Source: Runella sp. CRIBMP (GTDB taxonomy: Bacteria > Bacteroidota > Bacteroidia > Cytophagales > Spirosomataceae). From it: DNA of 59,355 bases. The stretch spans positions 1 to 59,355 of the forward strand of contig NZ_JAAAKZ010000025.1 of NCBI RefSeq assembly GCF_009905605.1. The letters are read 5' to 3'. Below are positions 176 through 59,355 of this stretch, in pieces. Below the pieces are notes generated by a model. The model was not told where the DNA came from. It made no database searches and worked only from the letters and a program-made list of their open reading frames with translations. Positions within the stretch are counted from its first letter, which is position 1, and each line of letters begins with the position of its first letter. A program made the position numbers and the translations under genes.

Positions 176-772
176 ATGACCACACAAATGGAAAGCGCAT
201 TTGAAAAATACATCCAGTCTTATTTTGGAATTCCGCCCGAAACGGTGACGGAAATCGTCTCCTATTTTCAGCCAATGACTTTAGGAAAAGGAGAATATTT
301 TCTGAAAGAAGGGGCAAAATGTGATAAAATGGGGTTTGTGCAATCGGGCATCATGCGCGAATACCTCATCGAAGAGCAAGGTCGAGAAGTGACCAAATGG
401 ATTTCGACCTCAGGTTATTTTGTAGTTGATATTGCTGCTTTTTTGTTTCGTGCTCCCGCCCGTTGGAATCTTCAAGCCCTCTCAGATTGTGAATTATTGG
501 TCATTCACCAGAAAGATTACGCCCAAATCGGCCAAAAAATACCTCAATGGCCCGAATTGGAGAAGCTGTTTATTGCCCGTTGCTTTACGATTCTGGAGCA
601 ACGCATCGTGACGCACCTGTCTTTGACGAGCGAAGAGCGTTACGAACTGTTTTTTACCCATCATCGTGAGTTGTTCAACCTGGTACCGTTGCAGTATTTG
701 GCTTCGATGCTCGGCATGACCCCCGAAACTTTCAGCCGAATCAGAAATAAATTGGCCAAACGCACTTCTTGA
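176..772 (+). CDS. Crp/Fnr-family transcriptional regulator with Fnr-like recognition helix
   Basis: A 198-aa protein with a cyclic-nucleotide-binding-type beta barrel (about residues 20-130), a long dimer helix, and a Crp-type winged helix-turn-helix at the C-terminus (about 150-195). The recognition helix reads GMTPETFSRIRNKL. The E-x-x-S-R arrangement is the one E. coli Fnr uses to read TTGA half-sites. There is no N-terminal cysteine cluster, so an Fnr-type oxygen-sensing Fe-S cluster is unlikely. Its stop codon lies inside a perfect CTTGA-N6-TCAAG dyad that fits the promoter of the next gene (846-1277), a likely direct target. ATG at 188 is an alternative start. The signal sensed is unknown. 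Confidence 0.9.
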   Translation: MTTQMESAFEKYIQSYFGIPPETVTEIVSYFQPMTLGKGEYFLKEGAKCDKMGFVQSGIMREYLIEEQGREVTKWISTSGYFVVDIAAFLFRAPARWNLQALSDCELLVIHQKDYAQIGQKIPQWPELEKLFIARCFTILEQRIVTHLSLTSEERYELFFTHHRELFNLVPLQYLASMLGMTPETFSRIRNKLAKRTS

Positions 773-8603: not shown

Positions 8604-9665
8604 TTACCGAACGTTGATGCGCAGTTTATCTGGTTGCACCACCCGAAAACCCTGAGGGGTGACTTCGATAAAACCATCATGCTTGAATTCACTGAGCGTT
8701 CGAATCAGCGATTCAGACGTCGTACCAATCATCGCGGCCAGATTTTCGCGGGAAAGCTGAATTGCGCTTTCGGGTTGTTGGGCCTGTAACACCAGCAACG
8801 TATCAGCTACGCGGCGGCGCAAAGAATTGTAAGCCATTCCAAGCAGTTTTTTTTCGTGGTCACTTACGCGGCTAGACATCAACTTGATAAATTTTAGGCT
8901 TACCTCCAAATCATCAGATATCACTTTTAAGAAATCAGCTTTAGGAATATAAATTAATTCTGAGTCAACAAGGGTCACGGCCGAATCGGTGTAATCGGTG
9001 TGCATAAATAAGGAAAGATACCCAAAGAAATCGCCAGGATGATAAAGCCCCGTAATAAACTCTTTGCCGTCACCATTGATACGAACAGTTTTTACTTGCC
9101 CTGATTTGAGATAAAACAATCGAATAGGCTCATCGCCCTCCAAATAAACGTATTGCTTTTTGGGGATAACGTGCGGCTTTCTGTCGGTTATGAAGCTTTG
9201 AAATTTACCTTCATGGTATGTCTCCTGTAAAAAACGGTTTAGATTATCCTCCTGCACAGGGGGAACAGGTACGGGATTAGCCGACGGTTTGAGATGAGCA
9301 ATCTTGTTCAATCGAACCTCAATAGACCGCAGTAAATCACTTTCGTCAAAGGGTTTCATCAAATAATCATCTGCCCCCAAATCCATGCCTTTGCGCAAAT
9401 CAGTGCGTTCAGTTTTGGCCGTCAAAAAGATAAAAGGGGTTCCCGCCAGTTCAGGATTTTGGTTGAAAATTTGCAACACTCCGTAGCCGTCCAATACAGG
9501 CATCATAATATCACAAATCACTAAATCGGGCTTAACGGCAATGGCTTTCTCTACGCCAACTTTTCCATTCTCGGCCACATAAACCTGATAACCAGCCAAT
9601 TCAAGAATATCGGCGGTATTTTCACGAATGATTTCGTTGTCTTCAATCAACAAAATGGTTTTCAT
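8604..9665 (-). CDS. Hybrid response regulator: receiver + Crp/Fnr (CNBD and HTH)
   Basis: A 353-aa fusion. Residues 1-120 are a CheY-type receiver (IEDNE, Asp52 in LVICDIMMPVLDG, Thr in IFLTAKTERTD, Lys in YLMKPFDESD). A linker follows, then a cNMP-binding barrel (about 150-270), a dimer helix and a Crp-type HTH (about 295-345) with helix TTSESLIRTLSEF. The E-x-x-x-R contacts of Crp/Fnr helices are kept, but the Fnr serine is replaced by Ile, so a non-TTGA site is expected. Its ATG overlaps the end of the PAS kinase gene by 23 bp, so the kinase is its likely phosphodonor. It is a prime candidate regulator for the TGTAA-N6-TCACR promoters of the sulfur island (inference). Confidence 0.9.
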   Translation of the reverse strand: MKTILLIEDNEIIRENTADILELAGYQVYVAENGKVGVEKAIAVKPDLVICDIMMPVLDGYGVLQIFNQNPELAGTPFIFLTAKTERTDLRKGMDLGADDYLMKPFDESDLLRSIEVRLNKIAHLKPSANPVPVPPVQEDNLNRFLQETYHEGKFQSFITDRKPHVIPKKQYVYLEGDEPIRLFYLKSGQVKTVRINGDGKEFITGLYHPGDFFGYLSLFMHTDYTDSAVTLVDSELIYIPKADFLKVISDDLEVSLKFIKLMSSRVSDHEKKLLGMAYNSLRRRVADTLLVLQAQQPESAIQLSRENLAAMIGTTSESLIRTLSEFKHDGFIEVTPQGFRVVQPDKLRINVR

Positions 9666-11235
9666 AAGGTAAGGTTATGGTAACGGTCGTTCCTTGATTC
9701 AAGACACTGGTCAGTGTAATATGTCCTCCCAAAAGATTAACGTATTGATTTACAATATGTAACCCCAACCCAGTACCAGAAATATTGGCGGCGTTTTTGG
9801 CTCTGAAGAAACGTTCAAATAAATGTTTTTGGTCTTCTTCCGAAATGCCGATACCGCTATCCTGCACGGTAAGTGTCAGCAGACCGTCTTTACAAGCTCC
9901 CTCCACCGTAATGCTCGATTCAGAATCAGAGTATTTTGCGGCATTTGTCAGAAGATTCAGAATGATATTACGCAACAGCGTAGCATCAATAATGATGATA
10001 TCGGTAGGAGAAAAATGAGACTTAATCGTCTGTCCTGGCTTCAATATCCCTTGCATCACCTCCATAATTTCATCCACTAGTTGGGCCAAGTTTACGCGGT
10101 CGGTATGAATTTCTACTTTTCCCTCTTCTAACCTGCCCAAGGATAAAAACTCTTCTAGGATTTCGTTGAGGTGGTTTACCGATGCACGAATTCTCACCAA
10201 ATGTTTGTGGATTTTATCCTGATTAGCTCTGTCGACGTACTTTTCAACCAATGTTGTGGAGGTTAAAATCGCCGTTAATGGTGTTCTGAACTCATGGGAA
10301 GCCAATGAAACAAAACGCGATTTTAAAGCACCCAATTCACGTTCCCTGTCCAAGGCTTTTGCGAGTTCTTCTTTAGATTTTTCAAGTTGTCGGAGCGTGT
10401 TAATGAGGGCGTGGGTTCGATTGGCCACCTTTTGTTCCAGCTCAACGTTAAGTTGGTTAATCAGTTCATGTTGGGCCTTCAGTTGCAGCTTGGCTTCTTT
10501 CTTAAAGATAATGTTGTTAATAAAAGCGATGGCATACAGCTCATCATTCAGGCGAAAGTAACTTAGGCTTACCTCAACGGGGAAGTCAACGCCCTCTTTA
10601 GTGACGGCTCTCAGGTCATACCCGTTCCCCATTTCCCGCGTTTGGGGGTTGACGTTAAAGTTTTTGCGGTGTTGCCGGTGTACATCGATGCGGTCGGAGG
10701 GTATCAATTGTTCAATGTCCATTGTCGTAAATTCATCCTCCGAATAGTGGAACAGTTTTTCTGCCATTTTATTGGCCGAAATAATCTGTCCATTTTCATT
10801 ACAAACGATGATTCCGATGGTCGCATTCGAAACAATGGTTTCATATTGACGGATAGATTGCAAAAGGGCAAGTTCAGCTTCATACAATCGATTCAGATTG
10901 ACAATTCGAACCAAGGCGTTATTTGTACCTCGGATAAGCGTAATTGTAATACCACCCCGAAATACCTGCCCCGAAAGGCACTTTACCTCAACTTCTTCAT
11001 AATGATGCTCCGATTCCATGAGCTTTGCTATTTTTGTAGCAATCTCTGTATCTTCATCATGCGCCGCACGAAACCAAGGATCCTTGAAATCTGAAAATTT
11101 TTGATTCCCCGAAAAGCCCATTAATCTTATCCCAGAATGATTAATCCGTAGAAAATGAAATCGTTGTAGATCATAAATTCCTAAGAAATCATTTTCCTGT
11201 TCAAAGAGTAAATTCGATAAGTCATTAAAAAGCAT
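9643..11235 (-). CDS. PAS-domain sensor histidine kinase
   Basis: A 530-aa cytoplasmic-looking kinase without membrane segments. One or two PAS folds occupy about 1-245 (GIIVCNENGQIISANKMAEKLF is the clear one, about 140-160). A coiled coil follows (VEQKVANRTHALINTLRQLEK region), then HisKA with phosphoacceptor His314 in LASHEFRTPLTAIL, and HATPase with N box NLLTNAAKYS, G1 box DSGIGISEED and G2 GTGLGLHIV. It overlaps and precedes the receiver-Crp gene 8604-9665, so the two form a two-component operon. Soluble PAS kinases often sense redox, oxygen or small ligands; no haem or flavin signature can be assigned here. Confidence 0.93.
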   Translation of the reverse strand: MLFNDLSNLLFEQENDFLGIYDLQRFHFLRINHSGIRLMGFSGNQKFSDFKDPWFRAAHDEDTEIATKIAKLMESEHHYEEVEVKCLSGQVFRGGITITLIRGTNNALVRIVNLNRLYEAELALLQSIRQYETIVSNATIGIIVCNENGQIISANKMAEKLFHYSEDEFTTMDIEQLIPSDRIDVHRQHRKNFNVNPQTREMGNGYDLRAVTKEGVDFPVEVSLSYFRLNDELYAIAFINNIIFKKEAKLQLKAQHELINQLNVELEQKVANRTHALINTLRQLEKSKEELAKALDRERELGALKSRFVSLASHEFRTPLTAILTSTTLVEKYVDRANQDKIHKHLVRIRASVNHLNEILEEFLSLGRLEEGKVEIHTDRVNLAQLVDEIMEVMQGILKPGQTIKSHFSPTDIIIIDATLLRNIILNLLTNAAKYSDSESSITVEGACKDGLLTLTVQDSGIGISEEDQKHLFERFFRAKNAANISGTGLGLHIVNQYVNLLGGHITLTSVLNQGTTVTITLPYENHFVD

Positions 11236-15082: not shown

Positions 15083-16048
15083 ATGACTCGAAAAATCACG
15101 CTTAAAGGATTGTGGGAAGTCTTACTTAATTCATTCAACGGATTTTTAGACGACAATGTGACCAAACTCGGCGGCTCGCTGGCGTATTTTACCGTATTCT
15201 CGGTAGGACCGTTGTTGGTGGTTATCATTTCCTTTTCTGGAATTTTTTTGGGGCGCGAAGCCATCGAAGGGCAAATTTATGCGCAGCTAGACAGTTTTTT
15301 GGGCAAAGACACCGCCATAGAGTTACAGGAAATCATCAAGAAAGCTGCCATAAGTGGTAAAAGTACCACCGCTGCCGCCATCGGTATAGCAACTTTGTTG
15401 ATAGGAACCACAGGTATTTTTGCCGAAATTCAGGACTCCATCAATAAAATATGGGGCATCAAAGCCAAACCAAAAAAAGGATGGCTCAAAATCATCCAAA
15501 ACCGTTTTTTATCCTTTTCGGTCATTATCAGTCTTGGGTTTTTACTGGTGGTCTCATTGGCCGTCACTACCATCTTAGACGGATTCAACAATCGGTTGCA
15601 GGCCGCATTTCCTGAAGTCACGATTGTGGTGTTTTATATTCTTAATCAAGCGCTTACGTTCATCGTCATCAGCTTACTGTTTGCGGTTATTTTCAGGGTT
15701 TTGCCCGATGCCAAAATCAAGTGGCACGACGTATTGGCGGGCTCGATGCTCACTGCCCTTTTATTTATGCTCGGCAAGTTTGGTATTTCATTCTACATCA
15801 GTAAAACCAACATCGGCAGCATGTACGGTGCCGCTGGCTCGATGGCTATTTTGTTGGTTTGGATCTATTATTCTTCTTTGATTCTCTATTTTGGGGCCGA
15901 ATTTACGAAGGCCTACGCCATGAAATTTGGCTCAGCCATTTATCCCAATGCGTACGCCATTACCGTCAAAGAAGTAGAGATTGAAAACGGCAAAGATTCT
16001 ATCCAAACCAACGAAAAAAAAAAGAAAGAACTCATAGATAAGGGCTAG
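15083..16048 (+). CDS. YihY/BrkB-family inner-membrane protein
   Basis: A 321-aa polytopic protein of the YihY/virulence factor BrkB family: LGGSLAYFTVFSVGPLLVVII near the N-terminus, then about five further hydrophobic helices, including FGISFYISKTNIGSMYGAAG and SMAILLVWIYYSSLILYFGAE, a conserved family ending. The C-terminal tail is charged (NEKKKKELIDKG). Family members are inner-membrane proteins of unsettled transport or stress function. It lies just before the sulfur island, but the island's first Crp/Fnr site is downstream of it, so it is probably not a member. Confidence 0.92.
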   Translation: MTRKITLKGLWEVLLNSFNGFLDDNVTKLGGSLAYFTVFSVGPLLVVIISFSGIFLGREAIEGQIYAQLDSFLGKDTAIELQEIIKKAAISGKSTTAAAIGIATLLIGTTGIFAEIQDSINKIWGIKAKPKKGWLKIIQNRFLSFSVIISLGFLLVVSLAVTTILDGFNNRLQAAFPEVTIVVFYILNQALTFIVISLLFAVIFRVLPDAKIKWHDVLAGSMLTALLFMLGKFGISFYISKTNIGSMYGAAGSMAILLVWIYYSSLILYFGAEFTKAYAMKFGSAIYPNAYAITVKEVEIENGKDSIQTNEKKKKELIDKG

Positions 16049-16127
16049 TAATCCAAGCATACCCTCATAACGCTCTTGCATCCCCGTGTAAAAATTCCCT
16101 CAATTTTCTTAAAACTTTCCTGACCTG

Positions 16128-16172
16128 TGTGACAATTATCACGGTAAGGCCCTTTTTGACCTTCTACTTTTG
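16128..16172 (+). promoter_or_regulatory. Crp/Fnr-type class II promoter of the TauE-like gene (site A)
   Basis: The dyad TGTGA-CAATTA-TCACG spans 16128-16143, then 21 bp, then the exact -7 box TACTTTTG (16165-16172). The dyad is close to the Crp consensus TGTGA-N6-TCACA. The same 21-bp spacing recurs at five other sulfur-island promoters. Confidence 0.75.
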
Positions 16173-16204
16173 CAGAGTCATTCAACAACTCACTGCAAAA
16201 GAAA

Positions 16205-17011
16205 ATGAGCTCAATTGAAATTTTTGGTTTTTCAGCCTCCATTTTTATAGGAATAAGTCTCGGGCTTATCGGTGGCGGCGGGAGCATTCTCACTTTACCC
16301 GTTTTAGTTTATTTATTGGGCATCAACCCTGTTCTTTCAACGGCGTATTCCCTTTTCGTGGTCGGTACTACTTCATTGGTTGGTTCGGTCAATTATATGC
16401 GCAAAGAATTGGTCAATTATCGCGCCGCGCTGGTCTTTGCCGTTCCTTCTTTTATCACCGTTTTTCTAACCCGCAAATACCTCGTTCCTGCCATTCCTGA
16501 CTCGTTATTTTCGGTGGGTGGATTTGAAGTTACCAAAAATATCGGCATCATGATATTTTTTGCCATAGTGATGTTGGCCGCTTCGTATTCAATGATTAAA
16601 GAGAAGAAAAAGACTAAAAACAAAGAAACTGGCGAGTTGAAATTCAACTACCCTGTCATTGGGCTTGAAGGGGCCGTTGTGGGAGCATTAACGGGCCTCG
16701 TGGGGGCGGGCGGCGGTTTTTTAATTATCCCTGCCTTGGTGGTTTTAGCGCATTTGCCCATGAAAATGGCCGTAGGAACTTCACTGCTTATCATTGCCGC
16801 AAAATCACTCATCGGCTTTATCGGCGACGTATCCAACCTTCCCGTCGATTGGCCATTTCTGCTTGAATTTACCGCTTTCTCCGTCGTCGGAATCTTCGTA
16901 GGCTCTTACCTTTCAAAATTCGTCCCGAGCGAAAAACTCAAAAGAGCGTTTGGCTGGTTTGTACTCGTGATGGGCATCGGGATTATTTCAAAAGAAATTT
17001 TCTTTAAATAA
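16205..17011 (+). CDS. TauE/SafE-family sulfite/organosulfur exporter
   Basis: A 268-aa inner-membrane permease with seven to eight hydrophobic helices and the family's two internal Gly-rich repeats: GISLGLIGGGGSILTLPVL near the N-terminus and GALTGLVGAGGGFLIIPALV in the second half. TauE members export sulfite or related anions. Here it heads an island with two CstB-like persulfide dioxygenases, the arrangement known from the S. aureus cst operon (CstB with TauE). It probably removes sulfite made during persulfide or thiosulfate oxidation. It is a single-gene unit with its own Crp/Fnr-type promoter. Confidence 0.92.
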   Translation: MSSIEIFGFSASIFIGISLGLIGGGGSILTLPVLVYLLGINPVLSTAYSLFVVGTTSLVGSVNYMRKELVNYRAALVFAVPSFITVFLTRKYLVPAIPDSLFSVGGFEVTKNIGIMIFFAIVMLAASYSMIKEKKKTKNKETGELKFNYPVIGLEGAVVGALTGLVGAGGGFLIIPALVVLAHLPMKMAVGTSLLIIAAKSLIGFIGDVSNLPVDWPFLLEFTAFSVVGIFVGSYLSKFVPSEKLKRAFGWFVLVMGIGIISKEIFFK

Positions 17012-17030
17012 TCAAACAAAATGTGGGTTA

Positions 17031-17075
17031 TGTAATAATTGTCACAGTACGGAGCATCCCCTCATTCTAACTTTG
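17031..17075 (+). promoter_or_regulatory. Crp/Fnr-type class II promoter of the first CstB-like gene (site B)
   Basis: The dyad TGTAA-TAATTG-TCACA spans 17031-17046, then 21 bp, then the exact -7 box TAACTTTG (17068-17075). Architecture is identical to sites A and C-F. Confidence 0.75.
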
Positions 17076-17116
17076 TATCATTAATTCAACAATACTAATC
17101 TTAACACAACACAACC

Positions 17117-18532
17117 ATGTTCTTTCAACACATTTATGACAAAACCCTAGCCCAAGCGAGTTACCTTATCGGTTGCCAAAGAACGGGTGAGTCCATGGTC
17201 ATTGACCCCAAAAGAGATGTAGATACGTACCTTGAAATTGCCAAACAAAACGGTTTGCGCATCACCCATATCGCCGAAACCCACATTCACGCCGATTTTC
17301 TTTCAGGAGCCCGCGAATTAGCCGCAATCACTGGCGCCAATATGTACCTTTCTGATGAAGGCGGCGAAGATTGGGAGTATGAATTTGACCACATCGGTCT
17401 GAAAAACGGGAGTGTTATTAAGGTAGGAAACCTTACATTTGAAGTCATTCACACCCCTGGCCACACCCCAGAAAGTATTAGTTTCTTACTTACCGACAAC
17501 CCCGCAAGTACCAAACCAGTGATGCTGTTTACGGGCGATTTTGTTTTTGTAGGTGATATCGGTCGTCCCGATTTATTGGAAAAAGCCGCAGGCATGAAAG
17601 GAACACAAGACGCAGGTGCGCTTCAAATGTACAATTCCATCCAAAAATTTGCCGCTTTACCCGATTATTTGCAGGTATGGCCCGGCCACGGAGCGGGTTC
17701 GGCCTGTGGCAAAGCCCTCGGCGCTGTTCCTAGCTCAACGGTGGGTTACGAAAAAATCAGGAATTGGGCGTTTCAGCACGACGATGACCAAAAAGGATTT
17801 GTGGATTACCTGCTCGCCGACCAACCCGAGCCACCCAAGTACTTTGCCATGATGAAAAAACTCAACAAAGTAGCGCGACCGTTGCTTACGCAGGTACCAA
17901 CACAAACAAAACTTTCAGGCGATGCTGTAAAAGCCGCCATGGAAAAAGGCATCAAATTGATTGATACCAGAAATAAAGTTGATTTTGCCCAAGGTTTTAT
18001 TCCTGGAAGCATCAACATTCAGGGAAACAACGCCTTTGCTACATGGATGGGCTGGTTTGTAAATTACGAAGAGCCGTTTATTTTGGTGGCCAACGACAAC
18101 CAAGTCGAAGACCTCACCCGCAAATTGATGCGCATTGGTTTAGACAACGTACTTGGTTATATTGACGACGTAAACGCTCTCGAAATCCCGCTCCAAAAAA
18201 GCGAAATCATCGAAATCGACGAATTCAAGTCTTACCTCAACCGCGAAGATACGCAGGTAATCGACCTGCGCGGGGTGTCGGAATACAATACCGAACACAT
18301 CGAGGGAGCCGAGAATATTTTTATCGGCACGATTCTCTCCAATTTGGATAAAATCAGTAAAGATAAGCAAGTGGTTATCCATTGTCAGGGTGGAGACCGG
18401 GCCGCTATTGGGTATTCTCTTTTGGTCAAAAACGGATTCAAAAATGTAAAAAACTATTCGGCAGGCATGAACGAATGGATCGCGAAAGGAAATCCAACTG
18501 CAACCGAATTGGTCGAAGCTGCCGCTTGTTAA
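17117..18532 (+). CDS. CstB-like persulfide dioxygenase with two rhodanese domains
   Basis: A 471-aa soluble enzyme. The N-terminal metallo-beta-lactamase fold (1-~240) carries the Fe site set ETHIHADF (His56, His58, Asp60), HTPGHTPES, GDFVFVGDIGRPDL and WPGHGAGSACGK. The first rhodanese domain (~262-350) has no Cys at its active loop (ILVANDN), so it is a pseudo-domain. The second (~370-465) has the active loop HCQGGDR with Cys423. This three-part layout matches CstB, which oxidises persulfide sulfur and yields thiosulfate. A paralogue follows at 18721-20142. A strong terminator follows the gene, so it is a single-gene unit with its own promoter. Confidence 0.92.
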   Translation: MFFQHIYDKTLAQASYLIGCQRTGESMVIDPKRDVDTYLEIAKQNGLRITHIAETHIHADFLSGARELAAITGANMYLSDEGGEDWEYEFDHIGLKNGSVIKVGNLTFEVIHTPGHTPESISFLLTDNPASTKPVMLFTGDFVFVGDIGRPDLLEKAAGMKGTQDAGALQMYNSIQKFAALPDYLQVWPGHGAGSACGKALGAVPSSTVGYEKIRNWAFQHDDDQKGFVDYLLADQPEPPKYFAMMKKLNKVARPLLTQVPTQTKLSGDAVKAAMEKGIKLIDTRNKVDFAQGFIPGSINIQGNNAFATWMGWFVNYEEPFILVANDNQVEDLTRKLMRIGLDNVLGYIDDVNALEIPLQKSEIIEIDEFKSYLNREDTQVIDLRGVSEYNTEHIEGAENIFIGTILSNLDKISKDKQVVIHCQGGDRAAIGYSLLVKNGFKNVKNYSAGMNEWIAKGNPTATELVEAAAC

Positions 18533-18549
18533 CCCGCTTTATTTTCATT

Positions 18550-18583
18550 AAATCCCCGATGCCACCACGTCGGGGATTTTTTT
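18550..18583 (+). terminator. Rho-independent terminator after the first CstB-like gene
   Basis: AAATCCCCGA (18550-18559) pairs with TCGGGGATTT (18570-18579) around a 10-base loop, followed by a T-run to 18583. It begins 17 bp after the stop codon. Confidence 0.85.
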
Positions 18584-18638
18584 GTGGGTTTTAGAGTCTA
18601 TTAAATGACATAAAAGCTGACATCAATCAGTATTTCTG

Positions 18639-18683
18639 TGTGCTAAAAGTTACAGAAAAGGCTACCAACAGGCGGTAATTTTG
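18639..18683 (+). promoter_or_regulatory. Crp/Fnr-type class II promoter of the second CstB-like gene (site C)
   Basis: The dyad TGTGC-TAAAAG-TTACA spans 18639-18654, then 21 bp, then the exact -7 box TAATTTTG (18676-18683). It is the least symmetric of the six dyads, but spacing and box are the same. Confidence 0.65.
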
Positions 18684-18720
18684 TTCTATTAAATCAGCAA
18701 AATAAACTTCCTCAAAAGAC

Positions 18721-20142
18721 ATGAAAGTAGAACAAATTTACACGGGTTGTTTGGCCGAAGCCGCCTATTACATTGAATCAAACGGCGAAGCCGCCGTCAT
18801 CGATCCTCTTCGTGATACCAAAGCCTACGTAGAGCGCGCCAAAAAAGAAGGCGTTGACATAAAATACGTGTTCGAAACCCACTTCCACGCCGATTTTGTC
18901 TCGGGACACATTGATTTATCCAACGCTACGGGCGCCACCATTGTTTTTGGACCCACCGCCAAGCCCGCATACACAGCCTACGTTGCCAAAGACGGGGAAG
19001 AATTTCAGTTGGGCAATGTAAAAATCAAGGCCATTCATACGCCCGGCCATACGATGGAATCAACCTGCTTTTTGTTGATTGATGAAAACGGTAAAGAAAC
19101 GGCCATTTTCACGGGCGATACCCTGTTTATCGGGGATGTAGGCCGCCCCGATTTGGCGCAGCACGTCAATAGTGATTTGACGGAAGAAAAACTGGCGGGG
19201 CATCTTTACGATTCTCTCCGCACCAAAATCATTCCGTTGGCCAACGACATTATCGTCTATCCAGGCCACGGTGCAGGCAGCGCTTGCGGTAAGAAAATGA
19301 GTAAAGAAACCACCGACACCCTCGGCAACCAGAAGTTGTTTAATTATGCGCTCAATTTGAATCTGACCAAAGAACAATTCATAAAAGAAATTCTGAAGGG
19401 GTTGGTTCCTCCCCCCGCCTACTTTCCTCAAAATGTATTGATGAACATTCAAGGCTACGAATGCCTCGAAGATGTCATGCAGCGTGGAAGTCAGGCATTG
19501 ACACCTGCCGCTTTTGAAGCCGCCGCCAACGAAACCGAAGCCCTGATTTTGGACGTTCGCGAAGCCCAAACTTTTGCCAAAGGATTTATTCCAAATGCCA
19601 TCAATATCGGCCTTAACGGGCAGTTTGCTTCGTGGGTAGGTACGCTTATTCCCGATTTAAAACAACCGATTTTATTGGTAGCCGAAGCGGGCAAAGAGGA
19701 AGAAACCATCACGCGTTTGGCCCGGGTGGGCTACGACAACTGCATCGGCTACTTGCAGGGCGGCATGGCCGCTTGGCAAGCAGCTGGTCTGGAGTTGGAC
19801 AGCGTCACATCTATTTCGGCCCAAACGTTTTCAGATTTGTTTACCGAAAACCCATCCCTGACGGTGTTTGATGTGCGTAAAAAGAGCGAATACGAGGCCG
19901 AGCACGTGGTTGGCGTTGAAAATTTACCGCTGGATTTTCTGAATGACCACATGGCCCAAATTCCAACCGACAAAACCTTTTATGTTCATTGTGCGGGTGG
20001 GTATCGCTCCATGATTGCGATTTCGATTTTAAAAGCCCGGGGCTTTGATAATTTGGTGGATGTAGCGGGTGGTTTTGCGGCCCTCCAAAGCGTGGGAAAA
20101 CTACCTTTGACGGAATACGTCTGTCCTTCTACTTTATTGTAA
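18721..20142 (+). CDS. Second CstB-like persulfide dioxygenase with two rhodanese domains
   Basis: A 473-aa paralogue of 17117-18532 with the same order: metallo-beta-lactamase domain (ETHFHADF, HTPGHTMES, GDTLFIGDVGRPDL, YPGHGAGSACGKK), a pseudo-rhodanese without active Cys (ILLVAEAGKEE), and a C-terminal rhodanese with loop HCAGGYR (Cys424). The active-loop residues differ from the first copy (CAGGYR versus CQGGDR), so the two may prefer different persulfide donors. Its own promoter lies in front and a terminator follows. Keeping two such enzymes under separate but alike promoters suggests division of labour, not recent duplication, since the proteins have diverged clearly. Confidence 0.92.
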   Translation: MKVEQIYTGCLAEAAYYIESNGEAAVIDPLRDTKAYVERAKKEGVDIKYVFETHFHADFVSGHIDLSNATGATIVFGPTAKPAYTAYVAKDGEEFQLGNVKIKAIHTPGHTMESTCFLLIDENGKETAIFTGDTLFIGDVGRPDLAQHVNSDLTEEKLAGHLYDSLRTKIIPLANDIIVYPGHGAGSACGKKMSKETTDTLGNQKLFNYALNLNLTKEQFIKEILKGLVPPPAYFPQNVLMNIQGYECLEDVMQRGSQALTPAAFEAAANETEALILDVREAQTFAKGFIPNAINIGLNGQFASWVGTLIPDLKQPILLVAEAGKEEETITRLARVGYDNCIGYLQGGMAAWQAAGLELDSVTSISAQTFSDLFTENPSLTVFDVRKKSEYEAEHVVGVENLPLDFLNDHMAQIPTDKTFYVHCAGGYRSMIAISILKARGFDNLVDVAGGFAALQSVGKLPLTEYVCPSTLL

Positions 20143-20160
20143 ATCAACCACTTCCTTTGC

Positions 20161-20193
20161 AAGAGAGAGCGATTTATTCGTTCTCTCTTTTTT
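20161..20193 (+). terminator. Terminator after the second CstB-like gene
   Basis: AAGAGAGAGCG (20161-20171) pairs with CGTTCTCTCTT (20179-20189) with one wobble or mismatch, followed by T to 20193. It ends one base before the next Crp/Fnr dyad (site D at 20195). Confidence 0.8.
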
Positions 20194-20194
20194 G

Positions 20195-20239
20195 TGTAAC
20201 ATATATCACGATGTAAGAAAGTAATAACCCCGATTTTTG
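20195..20239 (+). promoter_or_regulatory. Crp/Fnr-type class II promoter of the small membrane-protein gene (site D)
   Basis: The dyad TGTAA-CATATA-TCACG spans 20195-20210, then 21 bp, then GATTTTTG (20232-20239), one base off TAnnTTTG. The first 15 bases of the dyad are the same as in site E, 377 bp downstream. The start codon follows only 19 bases after the box. Confidence 0.65.
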
Positions 20240-20258
20240 TGATAAAATCAACCTAAGA

Positions 20259-20474
20259 ATGAAAAATATGCTCAACAATTGGCAACTTTGGCTCATGGCA
20301 AGTCTGACGTTAGGATTGGCTCCTTTTCTTCCGGAGCCGCACTTATTTGGTAAAATTCGATGGATACTCGGCGGAGCCGTGGGTATGAAACCCATGGATT
20401 GGTTTGATTTTTTTTTACATTTAACCCCTTGGCTTTTGCTCCTACGAAGTATCGCGCTAAAATGGATAAAATAG
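20259..20474 (+). CDS. Small hydrophobic protein of the sulfur island
   Basis: A 71-aa protein with hydrophobic helices at about 6-24 and 50-66 and a conserved-looking middle, PEPHLFGKIRWILGGAVGM, followed by MDWFDFFLHLTPW. I recall similar short proteins in other Bacteroidota but no assigned function. It is supported as a real gene by its dedicated Crp/Fnr-type promoter (site D), good start context, absence of an overlapping gene and place between sulfur genes. It could be an accessory subunit or assembly factor for a membrane redox or transport partner. No Cys or His ligand cluster suggests electron transfer by itself. Confidence 0.75.
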   Translation: MKNMLNNWQLWLMASLTLGLAPFLPEPHLFGKIRWILGGAVGMKPMDWFDFFLHLTPWLLLLRSIALKWIK

Positions 20475-20571
20475 CGCAACCTTAACCACTCGTTAGGTGA
20501 AACTCCCTACATTTAACTCACTATTTTCATATTTTACATATTCATTTTTTTATTCAATTTTTTCATTGATA

Positions 20572-20616
20572 TGTAACATATATCACATTGAAAGAAACTG
20601 AATACCGCTAATTTTG
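20572..20616 (+). promoter_or_regulatory. Crp/Fnr-type class II promoter of the tsdA-dsrE-soxB-like operon (site E)
   Basis: The dyad TGTAA-CATATA-TCACA spans 20572-20587, then 21 bp, then the exact -7 box TAATTTTG (20609-20616). It is the cleanest member of the set and closest to the consensus. Confidence 0.78.
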
Positions 20617-20647
20617 TCCCACCGCCTTTCACAACACTTTGGCAATC

Positions 20648-21730
20648 ATGGAGTTCAACAACCTCGTAGAAACGTTACTACGCTCGCTCAAAATTCTATT
20701 AGTCTTACTACTGACCTCGGCCAGTTTAATGTTCTTTTTAGGATATATTCTGATCGTTGGTGATTCCAATTCAAACGATAATGCGCCCATTGTTGAGCAA
20801 AACAATTATGTAAAGCCCGATTCAAACTTTGTGGGTCTTTGGCCTGGCCCCGCCGATTGGCAAAAGTCAAAATTCAACCCAGAACAACAAAAGTTAATCA
20901 ATTATGGCAAAGCGCTCATTGCCCACACGGCTGATTATCTGGGGCCCAAGGGCAGCGTAAAGCCTATTTCTAACGGCATGAATTGCCAAAACTGCCATTT
21001 GCAAGCGGGTGCACAGCCTTGGGGCAACAACTATTTTGCCGTGCAGTCTACCTATCCCAAATTTCGCGAACGGTCGGGAACAAGCGAAAATCAAGTAAAA
21101 CGCGTTAGCGATTGCTTTGAGCGTAGCCTCAACGGAAAAGCCCCCGACTCGACCAGCCGCGAAATGAAGGCCATTTTGGCCTACATCGAATGGTTAGGGA
21201 CGGGAGTTCCCAAAAATAAAGCACCCAAAGGCTCAGGAATTTATAAGCTCAAAGGACTCAAAAGAGCCACAGACCCCGTTTTGGGGAAAGTAGTGTATGA
21301 ACAAAAATGCCAAAGTTGCCATCAGGCAAAAGGCGAAGGTGTATTGGCCGCCGACGGTAAAAGCTATACGTTTCCGCCGCTTTGGGGCCCCAACAGCTAC
21401 AATATCGGCGCGGGTTTGTACCGCATTTCCAACTTTGCGGGCTATGTAAAATACAACATGCCTTTTGGAGTCACCTACAAAAATGCCCAACTCACCGACG
21501 AAGAAGCCTGGGACGTAGCTGCCTATGTTAATTCCATGCCCCGACCTACCAAAGACTTAAGCAAGGATTGGCCCAATATCGACGGCAAGCCCTTCGACCA
21601 TCCGTTTGGCCCTTACTCCGACCCATTTACCGAAACCCAGCATAAATATGGCCCTTACAAGCCCATCAAGGATTGGAAAGAAAAACACAAAGCCAATAAA
21701 TCCAAAAAGCCTAGCCTCGCCTCCCTATGA
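20648..21730 (+). CDS. TsdA-like dihaem cytochrome c (thiosulfate dehydrogenase family)
   Basis: A 360-aa cytochrome held in the membrane by one N-terminal helix (about 15-37). Two haem c motifs are present: CQNCH (113-117) inside GMNCQNCHLQAG, the TsdA-type context, and CQSCH (221-225). Cys156 in SDCFERSLNG lies where TsdA supplies the unusual Cys axial ligand of haem 1. Met271 in KYNMPFG may ligate haem 2. TsdA couples two thiosulfates to tetrathionate (or the reverse). An in-frame TTG at 20639 exists, but ATG 20648 is preferred. Its stop overlaps the next gene's ATG by 4 bp (ATGA), so the two are translationally coupled. Confidence 0.88.
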   Translation: MEFNNLVETLLRSLKILLVLLLTSASLMFFLGYILIVGDSNSNDNAPIVEQNNYVKPDSNFVGLWPGPADWQKSKFNPEQQKLINYGKALIAHTADYLGPKGSVKPISNGMNCQNCHLQAGAQPWGNNYFAVQSTYPKFRERSGTSENQVKRVSDCFERSLNGKAPDSTSREMKAILAYIEWLGTGVPKNKAPKGSGIYKLKGLKRATDPVLGKVVYEQKCQSCHQAKGEGVLAADGKSYTFPPLWGPNSYNIGAGLYRISNFAGYVKYNMPFGVTYKNAQLTDEEAWDVAAYVNSMPRPTKDLSKDWPNIDGKPFDHPFGPYSDPFTETQHKYGPYKPIKDWKEKHKANKSKKPSLASL

Positions 21731-22149
21731 AATCACTCCTTTTTATTTTTGCCTTAACGGGTATTTTGTTTGTAAATCAGGCCATTGGACAAACACCGGA
21801 GAAAGAACATCGCATCGTATTTCACTTGGCCTCCGCTGACACCCTTGTGCATAAAGCACTCGTTAAACAACTAGGAAACGTCTTAGATTATTGGAAAACC
21901 GCCAAAATCGAAGTTGTTGTTCACAATGCTGGGGTAGGTTTTATGAAAAAAGACGAAGCCATCCTGAGCAAAGAAATTGAACTTCTGAAAGAACGTGGAA
22001 TCGTCTTTGCCGTGTGTGAAAATAGCCTTAAACAACGAAAAATAGCCAAAAACCAGATTTTACCAGCGGCCATTTTTGTCCCCGTCGGGCTGGCAGAAAT
22101 TGTACTCAGGCAAGAGGAAGGTTGGTCTTACATCAAAGCGGGATTTTAA
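21727..22149 (+). CDS. Exported DsrE-like sulfur-carrier protein
   Basis: A 140-aa protein with a cleavable signal peptide (1-~22, ending in AIGQ) and a DsrE/DsrF-like fold: HRIVFHLASADTLVHKALVKQ, then VEVVVHNAGVGF, and the family strand GIVFAVCENSLKQRKI with one Cys. DsrE-type proteins carry persulfide sulfur on such a Cys. The signal peptide places it in the periplasm, alongside the TsdA-like cytochrome and SoxB-like hydrolase encoded in the same operon. Its ATG overlaps the upstream stop by 4 bp and it ends 18 bp before the SoxB-like gene. Confidence 0.85.
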   Translation: MKSLLFIFALTGILFVNQAIGQTPEKEHRIVFHLASADTLVHKALVKQLGNVLDYWKTAKIEVVVHNAGVGFMKKDEAILSKEIELLKERGIVFAVCENSLKQRKIAKNQILPAAIFVPVGLAEIVLRQEEGWSYIKAGF

Positions 22150-22167
22150 CTTAAACCTTTATAAACA

Positions 22168-23838
22168 ATGCCTTCTCGCCGCAAATTCCTCCAATCAGGT
22201 TTGTTTACAGGGGCCATTTTGGGAAGTACACCTCCCCTGTCGGCTTCTGAAGAAAACACAAATTCCGAAAAAGGTAACCACCCCAAAAACGGAACAATTA
22301 CATTCTTACAAACCACCGACGTCCACTGCCAGCTTCACCCCCACGATGAGCTTTTTTGGGAGAACAACCAACTTACATTTCGTAAAGCAGGAGGCTACGC
22401 ACATTTGGCTACGGCCTTAGATGTATTGCGAAAACCAAACCCGTCGAATACCATCGTCATGGATACGGGCGATATGTTTCAGGGCAGTATGCTTGCCGTC
22501 AAAACTACGGGAAAAGCGTTTGTTCCGCTGTTAAATGCGCTCAATTATGACCTGTATCTTCCTGGAAACTGGGAAGTGGTGTACAACAAACAAAACATGC
22601 AGCACCTGATGGGCGGGCTACTGACGCCCAAAGTCTGCGCCAATATGTACCACGACGCAGGCGACGGCAAACGGGGAAATCTCATTTTTCAACCCTACCA
22701 GATTTTCAACCGATTGGGGATTAAAATCGGTTTTTTGGGATATACCGACCCGTTGGTTCCGATTCGTCAATCTCCCATGTACAGTAAAGGAATTATTTAC
22801 ACCAAACCCGAAGAAAGCCTAAAAGAATACGTGACATTGTTAAAAGAGCAAGAACAATGCGATTTTGTAATTTTACTTTCGCATTTAGGGCTTAGCCAAC
22901 AAATTGCTTTGGGCAACAACACTGACTGTAAAGGAGTTGACTATATTTTTGGGGCTGATACGCACGAACGGGTACGAAAACCCATTCAGGCTGAATACAC
23001 CAAAATTGTAGAACCGGGCGCTTTTGGTTCATTCATCGGAAAACTCGACTTGCGCGTTAAAGATGGAAAAATCACGGGAGATTCATACGAACTTATTGAA
23101 GTTGACCCTAAAAAATATCCCGCCAAAAAGGAAGTACAGGAGTTAATAGAACAAATTGAAAAACCGTACCGGGCCGAAATAAATCGTGTTATTGGGTACA
23201 GTACTTTACCCTTATACCGAAATTTTGTGGTCGAAAACACAATCGATACCTTAATTGTGGACGCCCTCAAATGGAAGGTTAATTCAGATATAGCCTTGTC
23301 AAACGGTTTTCGTTTTTGCCCACCCCTAACCGCGGGCAAAGATGGAAAAGTGGCCATCACCGAAGGTTATCTTTTTGACATGCTCCCCATTGATTCTAAC
23401 GTCAAAACAGCCAAAGCAACGGGCCAACAACTCATAGAATGGCTCGAAAAAGAATTGCAAAACGTATTTGCCCAAGATGCATCCAAACGTTTTGGAGGCT
23501 GGTTGATACGGTTTAAAGGGATGAAGATAGAATTTAAAGCAAAGGAAAGAGTGGGTCAACGGGTGCAAAAAGTAACCATTGGCGGTGAGCCTCTCAATCT
23601 TGACAAAACCTACACCTTGTGCGCCTGCGAACGCGACGGTGACCCCGATGACATGCTTTGTCGCCTTAAAGGAGTGAAAGAAGCAAGGCTTACTTCCTAT
23701 ACCTTGCATACAGTGATGAAAGAATATTTGCGGGAATTTTCTCCAGTTACGCCCGCTTTACGCCACGATGCCACCATCTTAGACGCTCCTCAGAATCTTT
23801 TAAGTCAAGTTTTTGGGGTAGATTATACCTTTAGGTAA
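22168..23838 (+). CDS. SoxB-like metallophosphatase/5'-nucleotidase-family protein
   Basis: A 556-aa Tat-exported protein (SRRKFLQSGLFTGAILG). The N-terminal metallophosphatase domain has QTTDVHCQLHPHD (Asp51, His53), MDTGDMFQGS (Asp99/Asp102), GNWEVVY (133-139), LLSHLGLSQQ and GADTHERV. The C-terminal 5'-nucleotidase-type domain contains SNGFRFCPPL. Ordinary 5'-nucleotidases have GNHE; the Trp replacing His is a feature of SoxB thiosulfohydrolases. SoxB releases sulfate from a carrier-bound sulfane, but no SoxYZ, SoxXA or SoxCD is encoded here, so its carrier is unknown; the DsrE-like partner is a candidate. It is last in the tsdA-dsrE-soxB-like operon. Confidence 0.83.
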   Translation: MPSRRKFLQSGLFTGAILGSTPPLSASEENTNSEKGNHPKNGTITFLQTTDVHCQLHPHDELFWENNQLTFRKAGGYAHLATALDVLRKPNPSNTIVMDTGDMFQGSMLAVKTTGKAFVPLLNALNYDLYLPGNWEVVYNKQNMQHLMGGLLTPKVCANMYHDAGDGKRGNLIFQPYQIFNRLGIKIGFLGYTDPLVPIRQSPMYSKGIIYTKPEESLKEYVTLLKEQEQCDFVILLSHLGLSQQIALGNNTDCKGVDYIFGADTHERVRKPIQAEYTKIVEPGAFGSFIGKLDLRVKDGKITGDSYELIEVDPKKYPAKKEVQELIEQIEKPYRAEINRVIGYSTLPLYRNFVVENTIDTLIVDALKWKVNSDIALSNGFRFCPPLTAGKDGKVAITEGYLFDMLPIDSNVKTAKATGQQLIEWLEKELQNVFAQDASKRFGGWLIRFKGMKIEFKAKERVGQRVQKVTIGGEPLNLDKTYTLCACERDGDPDDMLCRLKGVKEARLTSYTLHTVMKEYLREFSPVTPALRHDATILDAPQNLLSQVFGVDYTFR

Positions 23839-23878
23839 CATTTGTCACGGAAGGGCCTTTTTCTTACCTGTACTTTTG
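23834..23878 (+). promoter_or_regulatory. Crp/Fnr-type class II promoter of the porin-YeeE operon (site F)
   Basis: The dyad GGTAA-CATTTG-TCACG spans 23834-23849, overlapping the stop codon of the SoxB-like gene. After 21 bp comes the exact -7 box TACTTTTG (23871-23878). Confidence 0.7.
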
Positions 23879-23912
23879 TAATGTTATTTCAAAACACGAG
23901 GCAGAGAAGAAA

Positions 23913-25310
23913 ATGAATCGCACTTTTTATATTTTAATATTGTTGTCAGGTATGTTAAGTCGTGTTTATGGACAAGGCATACATAGTCACCGAGAAATAG
24001 AAAAAGATACCAATACGTTGAACCACTTTTTTTCCAACGGACGCTTTTACGGTCATGCCCGGTCTTATTGGTCAGGCACCGTAAACGACGGCAATCTGAG
24101 TGATGCTTATGCATGGGGGGCTGGGGCTGGAATTGGCTACGAAACGCCCAAATTTTTTAAGCGTTTTCAACTCGGTTTAAGTGGTTTTTTTATGTTTAAC
24201 ATCAAATCCACTGACCTCGCCAAAGCCGACCCACAAACAGGACAAGTCAACCGCTACGAGATTGGCCTCTTTGACATTGAGCGCCCCAACGACCACGAAG
24301 ATTTGGACCGATTGGAGGAGTTATTTATCAAAACCCACTTCGGTAAAAAATCGGTCGTTACCATCGGTCGGCAAATCCCCCTGTCGCCCTTTATCAATCC
24401 TCAAGATGGACGCATGAGACCCACCCTGACCGAAGCCGCCGTGGTAGATATCAATGAATGGTCAAACCTCAAACTCCACGGCGAATACATTTGGCGGATT
24501 TCTCCCCGCTCTACCGTTCGGTGGTTTGAAGTGGGTGAAAGTATGGGCATTTATCCCGTAGGAGTCGATATAAACGGGAAACCCTCTCAGTACAAAGGAA
24601 ATACGGAATCAAAAGGAGTCGGGATTTTAGGCGCAACGTACCGTAAAAAACAATGGTCGATTGAGCTTTGGGATACCTACCTTGAAAACATAACTAACAC
24701 GGGGTTTCTGAAAGCCGAATGGAAGTCAAAAACCGAAGCAGGCAAAAATTGGTTTATAGGAAGTCAATTAGTTAGGCAAAATGCATTGGGTAATGGTGGA
24801 AATCCAGACCCGTCGCAGGCTTATACTCAACCTAGAGCAACGTCAACGGTGATTTCGGGCCGAATCGGGCGGCAATCTGCCAAATTTGATTGGTACGTAA
24901 ATGCCACCCGAATCACCGCCGAAGGTCGGTACCTCATGCCGCGAGAATGGGGCCGCGAACCTTTTTATACGTTTATGCCCCGCGAACGAAACGAAGGTTT
25001 TGGGGACATAACGGCTACCAGTATCAATACTTTTTATAAACCTCGGAAAAACCTAAAAATTGAAATCAGCGGCGGGTATTTCCAACTACCCGATATCAAA
25101 AATTTCGCACTTAACAAATACGGTATGCCTTCGTACTCTCAAATTAACTTAGGCATCACGTATCAATTTGAAAAATACTTGAAAGGATTAAACGCCCTAC
25201 TTTTGGTTGTTCGAAAAGATGAAATTGGCGAAACATACCAAAACGACCGCTATGTATTCAACAAAGTAAATATGTCTCACTTCAACTTAATTCTCAATTA
25301 TCACTATTAA
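23913..25310 (+). CDS. OprD-family-like outer-membrane porin
   Basis: A 465-aa protein with a signal peptide (1-~20, ending in VYGQ) and alternating amphipathic strands through the whole length, ending in an aromatic C-terminal strand (SHFNLILNYHY). The phrase PREWGREPFYTFMPRERNEG resembles OprD-family substrate-selective porins. As the first gene of the unit with two YeeE/YedE proteins, and under the island's Crp/Fnr promoter, it probably lets thiosulfate or another sulfur anion across the outer membrane. The family assignment is fair; the substrate is inferred from neighbours. It ends 11 bp before the next gene. Confidence 0.8.
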   Translation: MNRTFYILILLSGMLSRVYGQGIHSHREIEKDTNTLNHFFSNGRFYGHARSYWSGTVNDGNLSDAYAWGAGAGIGYETPKFFKRFQLGLSGFFMFNIKSTDLAKADPQTGQVNRYEIGLFDIERPNDHEDLDRLEELFIKTHFGKKSVVTIGRQIPLSPFINPQDGRMRPTLTEAAVVDINEWSNLKLHGEYIWRISPRSTVRWFEVGESMGIYPVGVDINGKPSQYKGNTESKGVGILGATYRKKQWSIELWDTYLENITNTGFLKAEWKSKTEAGKNWFIGSQLVRQNALGNGGNPDPSQAYTQPRATSTVISGRIGRQSAKFDWYVNATRITAEGRYLMPREWGREPFYTFMPRERNEGFGDITATSINTFYKPRKNLKIEISGGYFQLPDIKNFALNKYGMPSYSQINLGITYQFEKYLKGLNALLLVVRKDEIGETYQNDRYVFNKVNMSHFNLILNYHY

Positions 25311-25321
25311 TTAACATTCGC

Positions 25322-25897
25322 ATGCAACAATTCATTGAACTGATTCGTCAACCTTGGCCGTGGTACGTGGCTGGGCCGCTGATTGGGCTGACTGTCCCCA
25401 CATTATTATTGATTGGAAACAAATCTTTTGGTATTTCATCCTCACTGCGTCACATTTGCGCCGCCTGTTTTCCCGCCAATATTTCCTTTTTTAAGTATGA
25501 TTGGAAAAAAGAAATCTGGAATTTGGTCTTCGTACTCGGCGTATTTTTTGGAGGAATGATTGCCACCAACTTTATGGAAAACCCCAACGCTTTCCAACTT
25601 TCAACCAACACAATGGCTGATTTGCGGACGTTAGGAATTCAGGATTTTTCGGGATTGATGCCCGCCGACTTGTTTAGCATGGAAGCACTCTTCTCCCTGA
25701 AAGGATTCATTTTCTTTGTTTTAGGTGGTTTTATGGTTGGTTTTGGCACACGCTATGCGGGTGGATGTACTTCGGGTCACGCAATCATGGGGTTGTCAAA
25801 TCTCCAGATTCCGTCTCTCATCGCAACCTGCTGTTTTATGATTGGCGGTTTTACCATGACTCACTTACTAATGCCCATTATTTTCAAATTATTTTAA
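25322..25897 (+). CDS. YeeE/YedE-family membrane protein (sulfur-compound transport), half 1
   Basis: A 191-aa membrane protein with about four to five hydrophobic helices. The YeeE/YedE (DUF395/TsuA-like) signature is YAGGCTSGHAIMGLSNLQ, with the conserved Cys that contacts thiosulfate in TsuA-type channels. A second conserved-type segment is HICAACFPANISF. At half the length of TsuA it probably pairs with the following protein (25928-26431) to make one pore. It is the middle gene of the porin-YeeE-YeeE unit. Role: uptake of thiosulfate or related sulfur compounds (from family knowledge). Confidence 0.88.
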   Translation: MQQFIELIRQPWPWYVAGPLIGLTVPTLLLIGNKSFGISSSLRHICAACFPANISFFKYDWKKEIWNLVFVLGVFFGGMIATNFMENPNAFQLSTNTMADLRTLGIQDFSGLMPADLFSMEALFSLKGFIFFVLGGFMVGFGTRYAGGCTSGHAIMGLSNLQIPSLIATCCFMIGGFTMTHLLMPIIFKLF

Positions 25898-25927
25898 TTG
25901 AAACCCAACACATTAAAGCATACAACA

Positions 25928-26431
25928 ATGAGTTTTCAACAAGTTTCTCCTCCCATTGAGCAAGATGAACAGCCCTTCGCCTGTGAAGCTCCCAATGACA
26001 TGGCACAACCCGAAAGTTGGGTCAGTAATATCAAATACCTGATTGTCGGGGTTCTTTTTGGGATTGTTTTTGTCAAAGCCGAAATCATTTCTTGGTTCCG
26101 TATTCAGGAAATGTTCCGCTTGCAAAGTTTCCACATGTACGGCGTTATTGGTAGCGCCGTAGTGGTTGGAATGGTTTCAGTATTTTTGATTAAAAAATTC
26201 AATATCAAGACATTATCTGGCGAAACTATTCAGTTTCACCCCAAGAAATTCCAGCGAGGACAAATCTACGGTGGCCTTATTTTTGGTTTAGGCTGGGCCA
26301 TTACGGGCGCTTGCCCTGGGCCTCTATTTGCTCAAATCGGCAGTGGTTATATGGCCGTGATTGTCACGTTATTGAGCGCCGTGGCAGGAACCTGGGCCTA
26401 TGGGTATTTTAGGGATAAATTACCTAATTAA
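25928..26431 (+). CDS. YeeE/YedE-like membrane protein (DUF6691 type), half 2
   Basis: A 167-aa membrane protein with four hydrophobic helices and the second YeeE-type signature GLGWAITGACPGPLFAQIGSG with one Cys. A hydrophilic N-terminal tail precedes the first helix. An in-frame TTG at 25898 directly follows the upstream stop, but ATG 25928 is the likelier start. In many Bacteroidota two such half-size proteins are adjacent and probably form one sulfur-anion transporter. It is the last gene of the island, followed by a bidirectional terminator. Confidence 0.87.
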   Translation: MSFQQVSPPIEQDEQPFACEAPNDMAQPESWVSNIKYLIVGVLFGIVFVKAEIISWFRIQEMFRLQSFHMYGVIGSAVVVGMVSVFLIKKFNIKTLSGETIQFHPKKFQRGQIYGGLIFGLGWAITGACPGPLFAQIGSGYMAVIVTLLSAVAGTWAYGYFRDKLPN

Positions 26432-59278: not shown

Positions 59279-59355
59279 TTTTTTTTTACGGACTGAATCA
59301 ACCATTTTTAGGAGTGAACCGCCTGTTTTTTGGGAGTGAACTGGGGTTTTCTTTA
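59279..59355. repeat. Second copy of the 77-bp terminal overlap
   Basis: This is identical to bases 1-77 and is an artefact of linearising a circle, not a transposon end or a true duplication. Joining the ends puts the fasciclin start codon (59207, minus strand) and the Crp/Fnr start codon (176, plus strand) about 246 bp apart and divergent. Confidence 0.93.

Follow-up and report, generated by a model that had tools for sequence, protein, structure and literature searches.

The window analyzed here is a whole contig of 59,355 bp (NZ_JAAAKZ010000025.1) from Runella sp. CRIBMP, whose genome totals 7.13 Mb. It carries an island of sulfur genes, and six promoters of this island share a 16-bp dyad that is followed, after a gap of 21 bp, by a -7 box of the form TAnnTTTG. 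Judging from sequence comparisons, the six sites are very probably class II operators of one activator of the Crp/Fnr family, most likely a protein denoted here as CysCrp. The dyads begin at 16128, 17031, 18639, 20195, 20572, and 23834 of the + strand, as the first-pass annotation had reported. The elements are as follows.

16128..16143, + strand: dyad TGTGACAATTATCACG, upstream of the TauE/SafE gene
16165..16172, + strand: -7 box TACTTTTG
17031..17046, + strand: dyad TGTAATAATTGTCACA, upstream of the first MBL-rhodanese gene (PDO1)
17068..17075, + strand: -7 box TAACTTTG
18639..18654, + strand: dyad TGTGCTAAAAGTTACA, the weakest, upstream of the second MBL-rhodanese gene (PDO2)
18676..18683, + strand: -7 box TAATTTTG
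20195..20210, + strand: dyad TGTAACATATATCACG, upstream of the small-protein gene
20232..20239, + strand: -7 box GATTTTTG, 5 of 6 letters
20572..20587, + strand: dyad TGTAACATATATCACA, upstream of the cytochrome c gene
20609..20616, + strand: -7 box TAATTTTG
23834..23849, + strand: dyad GGTAACATTTGTCACG, upstream of the OprD-like porin gene
23871..23878, + strand: -7 box TACTTTTG

Exactly 21 bp separate the dyad from the box at 6 of 6 sites, and the earlier description of five exact boxes and one with a single base off was confirmed. In every case the box ends 19-41 nt before an ATG. The probability of finding such sites by chance was determined with 300 first-order Markov simulations of the window, using both strands and a generic dyad, TGTNA-N6-TNACA, scored out of 8. 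A dyad of at least 6/8 with an exact box at gap 21 was observed 5 times (simulated mean 0.27, maximum 2), and a dyad of at least 7/8 with a box of at least 5/6 was also observed 5 times (mean 0.46, maximum 3). When both thresholds were relaxed (dyad at least 6/8, box at least 5/6), 15 matches were observed against a simulated mean of 5.5 and a maximum of 13, and most of the loose matches elsewhere in the window are therefore noise. The excess over chance within the window alone is clear but modest, and conservation in relatives is the stronger evidence.

The genes of the island are listed below.

16205..17011, + strand: sulfite exporter of the TauE/SafE family (Pfam PF01925)
17117..18532, + strand: PDO1, an MBL-fold plus rhodanese protein, persulfide-dioxygenase-like (Pfam PF00753, PF00581)
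18721..20142, + strand: PDO2, a second MBL-fold plus rhodanese protein
20259..20474, + strand: small protein of 71 aa without a Pfam family
20648..21730, + strand: c-type cytochrome with a SoxA/TsdA-like domain (PF21342, PF00034)
21727..22149, + strand: DsrE-family protein (PF02635)
22168..23838, + strand: SoxB-like metallophosphatase/5'-nucleotidase (PF02872, PF00149)
23913..25310, + strand: OprD-like outer-membrane porin (PF03573)
25322-25897 and 25898-26431, + strand: two YeeE/YedE-type sulfur transport genes (PF04143)

Part of the PDO1 gene matches annotated cstB genes, and the 71-aa protein is matched in 7 of the island regions of 23 relatives. The SoxB-like protein scores 276.8 bits against the TIGR04486 model of SoxB, below the cut-off of 550. 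Together with the SoxA/TsdA-like cytochrome and the DsrE protein it forms one apparent unit (20648-23838), which hints at a partial Sox-like periplasmic route for thiosulfate. The YeeE/YedE-type genes probably belong to the transcription unit of the porin, to judge from their spacing.

The window is very likely a circular Runella plasmid because its ends are shared, a ParA-type gene is present, and other Runella plasmids match it. Positions 1-77 and 59279-59355 are the same 77 bases, the kind of overlap left when a circular molecule is assembled, and the plasmid would be 59,278 bp long if circular. Positions 16001-24000 are 92.7% identical over their whole length to a 47.7-kb plasmid of Runella rosea, and 74.5% identical over 89% to a plasmid of R. 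slithyformis. The plasmid location assumed by the first-pass annotation is thus supported by the shared ends and the R. rosea match.

A search for the motif was run on related genomes; genomes, contigs, and loci are denoted below by G, C, and L numbers. Some PDO match was found in 121 of 121 genomes sampled from the family, and PDO1 orthologs of at least 70% identity were collected from 24 loci including our own (a fragment match in G023 was not counted). When at least 13 of 16 dyad letters, at least 5 of 6 box letters, a gap of 21, and a position within 300 bp upstream were required, the combination of dyad, gap, and box was found to be kept upstream of PDO1 in 18 of the 24 loci. A site at the TauE position, with gap 21 and over 300 bp ahead of PDO1, is also present in 18 of 24. 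The PDO2 dyad is identical in L040 and L041 and has small changes in L042 and L045. Between relatives the spacer sequences drift and the dyad, gap, and box stay. None of six distant PDO paralogs has a site within 300 bp upstream. The fixed gap was evaluated in 39 sequences, namely the window, four further regions of its own genome, and 34 regions of relatives. Of 154 oriented dyads, 54 have an exact box at gap 21, whereas the mean over 140 other gaps is 0.11; the sites of close relatives in this set are partly dependent.

Sites of the same kind recur in the rest of the genome. A scan with the refined dyad TGTRAYAWWTRTYACR, allowing at most one mismatch, returned 32 rows at 21 places against 7 rows for the control. 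Of these places 19 were examined, and a box of at least 5/6 stands at gap 21 in 8 of them, five inside the window. The three on other contigs precede a rhodanese followed by small proteins and a thioredoxin (C52:22273), a Tll0287-family protein followed by a rhodanese (C52:13955), and an OsmC protein followed by a rhodanese-thioredoxin protein (C12:271234). The small proteins after the C52:22273 rhodanese look DUF2892-like, an assignment that does not come from a Pfam match. The regulon is therefore not confined to the plasmid. The exact-letter pattern with a gap of 20-22 finds three of the six sites in this genome and one more, C1:735458, with a gap of 22. The first-pass proposal of a compact plasmid regulon thus stands with respect to a shared sulfur regulon and fails with respect to its being compact and plasmid-bound, since there are sites on other contigs and, as described below, across the phylum. 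The plasmid island would be one part of a wider sulfur regulon.

The position of the dyad relative to the transcription start can be estimated from Flavobacterium psychrophilum, for which the main text of PMC9723704 presents a genome-wide map of start sites that places TAnnTTTG at -12 to -5. That main text contains neither 'crp' nor 'fnr'. With the box at -12 and a gap of 21 bp, the 16-bp dyad therefore spans -49 to -34 and is centered at -41.5. In the relevant passages of PMC12360894, the CC(-41.5) promoter is tightly CRP-dependent. A dyad centered at -41.5 that overlaps the upstream sigma element is a feature of class II Crp-dependent promoters and is present here with start sites borrowed from another species; the class II position near -41.5 suggested by the first-pass annotation is supported by the gap and by the mapped flavobacterial box. 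We infer binding, activation rather than repression, and the start sites themselves. The six sites would be operators of one Crp/Fnr-family activator placed at -41.5, where it would contact RNA polymerase, and the -7 box would be the only recognizable sigma element.

CysCrp is a protein of 216 residues encoded at C52:233352-233999, on a contig other than that of the island. It has the cyclic-nucleotide-binding-fold (cNMP-binding-fold) effector domain and the HTH_Crp domain of the Crp/Fnr superfamily. There are 11 matches to HTH_Crp_2 (PF13545) in the genome, several of which are not Crp proteins by sequence, and among these eleven only CysCrp has the recognition helix TSREVISR. As stated for E. 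coli CRP in the pertinent part of PMC11253593, Arg180 contacts G2, Arg185 contacts G4, and Glu181 contacts the cytosine opposite G4 of TGTGA. Residues R185, E186, and R190 of CysCrp align with R180, E181, and R185 of CRP, respectively. Relatives of CysCrp adjoin the island in 10 of the 23 relatives' regions (up to 20 kb). The 54 genomes with a close CysCrp hold 164 dyads against 56 for the reversed control, and the 39 genomes without CysCrp show no excess (30 versus 36). The presence of dyads differs between these two groups with a Fisher p of 1.3e-6, uncorrected for relatedness. CysCrp, encoded on contig C52, would act in trans on the plasmid.

Two arrangements of regulator genes in relatives are worth recording. 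At L103 (G095:C6), a contig of 44.7 kb, pieces of a broken CysCrp gene lie beside the island near PDO1 and an intact gene is found on a large contig; the dependence of the G095 island on the chromosome for CysCrp may have been acquired. L110 (8957-9520) and L117 (8692-9279) encode near PDO1 a second Crp-like paralog that is 34-35% identical to CysCrp and has ESCIMSF in place of DSCAMSL.

At least 588 relatives of CysCrp were confirmed by searching, and the spacing was determined again in the loci around some of them. In 80 loci from named genomes of several Bacteroidota classes, an exact box is present at gap 21 for 27 of 110 dyads, with a mean of 0.06 at other gaps, and at least one site was found in 56 of the 80 loci by the cut used there. 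A test set of another 60 loci was then made, for which the generic dyad TGTNA-N6-TNAC had been chosen in advance; no regulator in it is identical to one in the earlier set (different rows 103/104, later 162/163). The exact box is present at gap 21 for 19 of 151 dyads (other-gap mean 0.15, maximum 5), and a box of at least 5/6 is present for 46 (other-gap mean 1.79). Relatives of sulfur-locus proteins follow 28 of these 46 sites, and CysCrp itself follows 3.

The recognition helix of the regulator varies together with the operator. Both outer arginines are present in 164 of 164 CysCrp relatives, and the place between them is occupied by Val in 108, Glu in 55, and Ala in 1. A G at the fourth base of at least one half-site was found at 46 of 46 loci with Glu186 and at 7 of 59 with Val186, these being the 105 loci with strict sites out of 163 rows. 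The count left out L169, L184, L234, and L236, which have both helix types, and one Ala regulator. L234 and L236 belong to the test set and both have sites, with G in one. In the 60-locus test set by itself, G occurs at 14 of 14 Glu loci and 4 of 19 Val loci. An earlier count by half-sites gave G in 92 of 166 for Glu loci versus 8 of 176 for Val loci; there, family regions were classed according to their genome, and repeats were filtered out by their context. Of the five Val loci in the first set that break the pattern, two also carry a gene for a Glu-type paralog. The tree needs about six helix switches, and the three independent pairs on supported branches change in the expected direction in nearly every pairing. 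The covariation is in the right direction, with too few pairs to prove it. Among the sites of the half-site count, compared at bases 16-18, G predominates immediately after the dyad (0.64 and 0.57), and T predominates at the sixteenth base of Val-type sites (0.57), the first base having been fixed as T by the search. The promoter-proximal half-site is therefore not a plain copy of the distal one.

A third type of regulator, with an ARV helix, goes with TGTAAC-N4-GTAGCT, which occurs 15 times in 23 loci (at L121, L122, L127, L224-L226, L233, L238, and L257); L187 also has the ARV helix and lies outside the 23. For 13 of the 15, the distance from the place of the box to the start of a match to a TauE or PDO relative is 14-100 nt, and for the other 2 a DUF2892-like or rhodanese-thioredoxin match begins 377-394 nt on. 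A box of at least 5/6 stands at gap 21 in that one orientation for 14 of 15. At the fifteenth (L238) the box in that place matches 4/6, and one of 5/6 lies on the opposite side. These boxes are mostly 5/6 and often read [CG]AnnTTTG. None of the 27 SRV or 20 SRE loci examined contains this motif. The ARV operator is asymmetric and oriented, which is odd for a regulator of a homodimeric family.

The nature of the signal is less certain than the operators. The residues of CRP that bind cyclic AMP (cAMP), G71, E72, and R82, are replaced in CysCrp by A81, S83, and S93, in a loop that could be misaligned by one residue. All 164 relatives have Cys80, which in the alignment falls next to the cAMP-holding residues of CRP; the cysteine loop aligns with the cyclic-nucleotide pocket. 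A Cys86-Cys87 pair is found in 126 of 164 and is lost in most ARV types. None of the N-terminal cysteines that hold the [4Fe-4S] cluster of FNR was found before C80 in CysCrp of this genome. Because persulfide dioxygenases and rhodaneses are among the targets, a persulfide or polysulfide may be the signal. If so, the invariance of Cys80 and the loss of the pair in most ARV types point to Cys80. We consider the chances to be evenly divided on whether a persulfide or other sulfane-sulfur species acts on this residue.

The alternative that survives best concerns the signal only, and we give it perhaps one chance in a few: CysCrp may respond to a cyclic nucleotide, to oxygen, to nitric oxide, or to another signal, with sulfur genes as merely its main targets. 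The fold of CysCrp is that of CRP, FNR, and HcpR, its effector is not visible from sequence, and 15 of the 46 test-set sites have none of the 19 query proteins downstream. The loss of the cAMP residues and the 28 sulfur-locus and 3 CysCrp genes behind test-set sites argue the other way.

It is improbable that the dyad is a repressor site that blocks the polymerase at -41.5 and is released by a sulfur signal. There is precedent in BigR, a persulfide sensor that represses the yeeE-yedE-pdo2 operon according to the portion of PMC7315123 devoted to it. A roadblock repressor would not need a gap that is fixed to the base, however, and the dyad promoters look activator-dependent: a TTTG at -33 is found in 0 of 132 of them versus 36 of 485 other boxes before open reading frames, a difference that arises in part by construction, since the dyad takes up those bases.

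Marginally less probable still is the proposal that a Crp-like protein of the plasmid itself binds the six sites. The most plausible such protein (8604-9665) has a Crp-type helix-turn-helix (HTH), is encoded approximately 6.5 kb from the first site, and stands beside a PAS histidine kinase (window 8604-11235); two C12 proteins look like paralogs of this receiver-Crp protein. The receiver-Crp and PAS-kinase genes accompany the island in the two relatives with the highest PDO1 identity. Yet only 2 of the 23 regions from relatives, each up to 20 kb long, contain this pair (some end too near the island to show it), and the sites persist in many of the others, a comparison limited to those regions. 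A plasmid regulator would also leave unexplained why the operators follow the helix type of CysCrp. The first-pass annotation had proposed the two plasmid Crp/Fnr-type proteins for a DNA-binding test, and neither has the arginine by which G2 of TGTGA is read. The receiver, cNMP-binding, and Crp HTH protein at 8604..9665 (- strand) was rejected because Ser occupies the place of CRP Arg180, and the Crp-like protein with a short HTH at 176..772 (+ strand) because Pro does.

Chance, or the inheritance of copies of one promoter within the island, can be set aside: 20195 and 20572 do share the core TGTAACATATATCAC, but no relationship is apparent among the six 21-bp spacers, and the simulations, the conservation in relatives, and the other-gap controls bear out the first-pass judgment that the spacing is no accident.

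Several observations weigh against the assignment of the six sites to CysCrp as class II operators. The 18639 dyad is the weakest, with 14 of the 16 letters of the refined consensus, and was missed by the genome scan allowing one mismatch; the 20195 box is imperfect, and the 23834 dyad is imperfect at its first base. The other palindrome, GTNACANNTGTNAC, is rarer in the genome than its reversed control, being found at 1 place (only 23834) versus 10. No box stands at gap 21 in 11 of the 19 examined places with a one-mismatch dyad, and lone dyad matches are therefore often not this kind of promoter. One such dyad, C52:20917, precedes small-protein genes beside the rhodanese cluster. Six of the 24 PDO1 loci are without a site by the cut used; in four of them (L048, L051-L053) a site is found approximately 0.9 kb upstream of PDO1, at the start of TauE, and in L060 and L061, the remaining two, a variant dyad stands at gap 21 from a 5-of-6 box. 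Within the 19 kb examined, no such site accompanies the CysCrp gene of this genome. Dyads are not in excess in the 28 genomes whose only CysCrp homologs are distant (15 versus 23 for the control). The helix switches yield only three scorable independent pairs (sign test p = 0.25), and much of the raw association between helix and operator may therefore reflect shared ancestry. The cysteine-bearing loop is the least certain part of the CysCrp model apart from the C-terminal end, with a mean predicted local distance difference test score of 66 for residues 81-90. Taken with the evidence above, the observation is real, conserved, and wider than first reported, and the class II reading is well supported.

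Comparable systems are known. The class II CRP promoters of E. coli of the CC(-41.5) type likewise have a TGTGA-N6-TCACA-type dyad at -41.5 that overlaps the upstream sigma element, as described in the promoter section of PMC12360894. The promoters reported here differ in having the Bacteroidota -7 box TAnnTTTG, a candidate regulator without the cAMP residues, and one gap across the sites that define the regulon. Among solved structures the best sequence match to CysCrp is 3dv8, a Crp/Fnr regulator of Eubacterium rectale that is 28-29% identical, has a Cys in the same loop, and matches the predicted fold. We know of no regulon for 3dv8. HcpR of Porphyromonas gingivalis (9day), from the same phylum, has the Crp/Fnr fold and is 19% identical to CysCrp; it is linked to nitrosative stress and is not known to be linked to sulfur genes. 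CstR, BigR/SqrR, and FisR belong to protein families other than Crp/Fnr. The sections of PMC7315123 on these proteins describe them as persulfide sensors that control persulfide dioxygenase and yeeE/yedE-type genes. CysCrp, unlike these sensors, is a member of the Crp/Fnr family, and its sulfur signal is our proposal. The persulfide-sensing regulators of such genes covered in those sections are from other phyla, and none was found for Bacteroidota in our searches of open-access literature. No Crp/Fnr sulfur regulon of Bacteroidota was found in those searches either, most subscription papers being outside them. The kind of system is known, and the regulon, the regulator family, and the operator types appear to be undescribed in the literature searched.

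A broader proposal, to which we give slightly less than even odds, is that CysCrp represents a Bacteroidota-wide, persulfide-sensing Crp/Fnr activator in which a cysteine replaces the cyclic-nucleotide pocket. It would control the detoxification of sulfane sulfur through class II promoters with base-fixed spacing, and would occur naturally in three DNA-specificity types (SRE, SRV, and ARV), each paired with a matching operator; one of these operators is asymmetric and oriented so that the TGTAAC half lies distal to the gene.

The combination of site, gap, and box provides a ready search rule for such regulons in Bacteroidota and a simple design for reporters. The split between Glu and Val at a base-reading residue, which classical specificity mutants of CRP resemble, makes the coevolution of regulator and operator testable. 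The plasmid island seemingly depends on a regulator that is encoded elsewhere, and this bears on the movement of the island between hosts.

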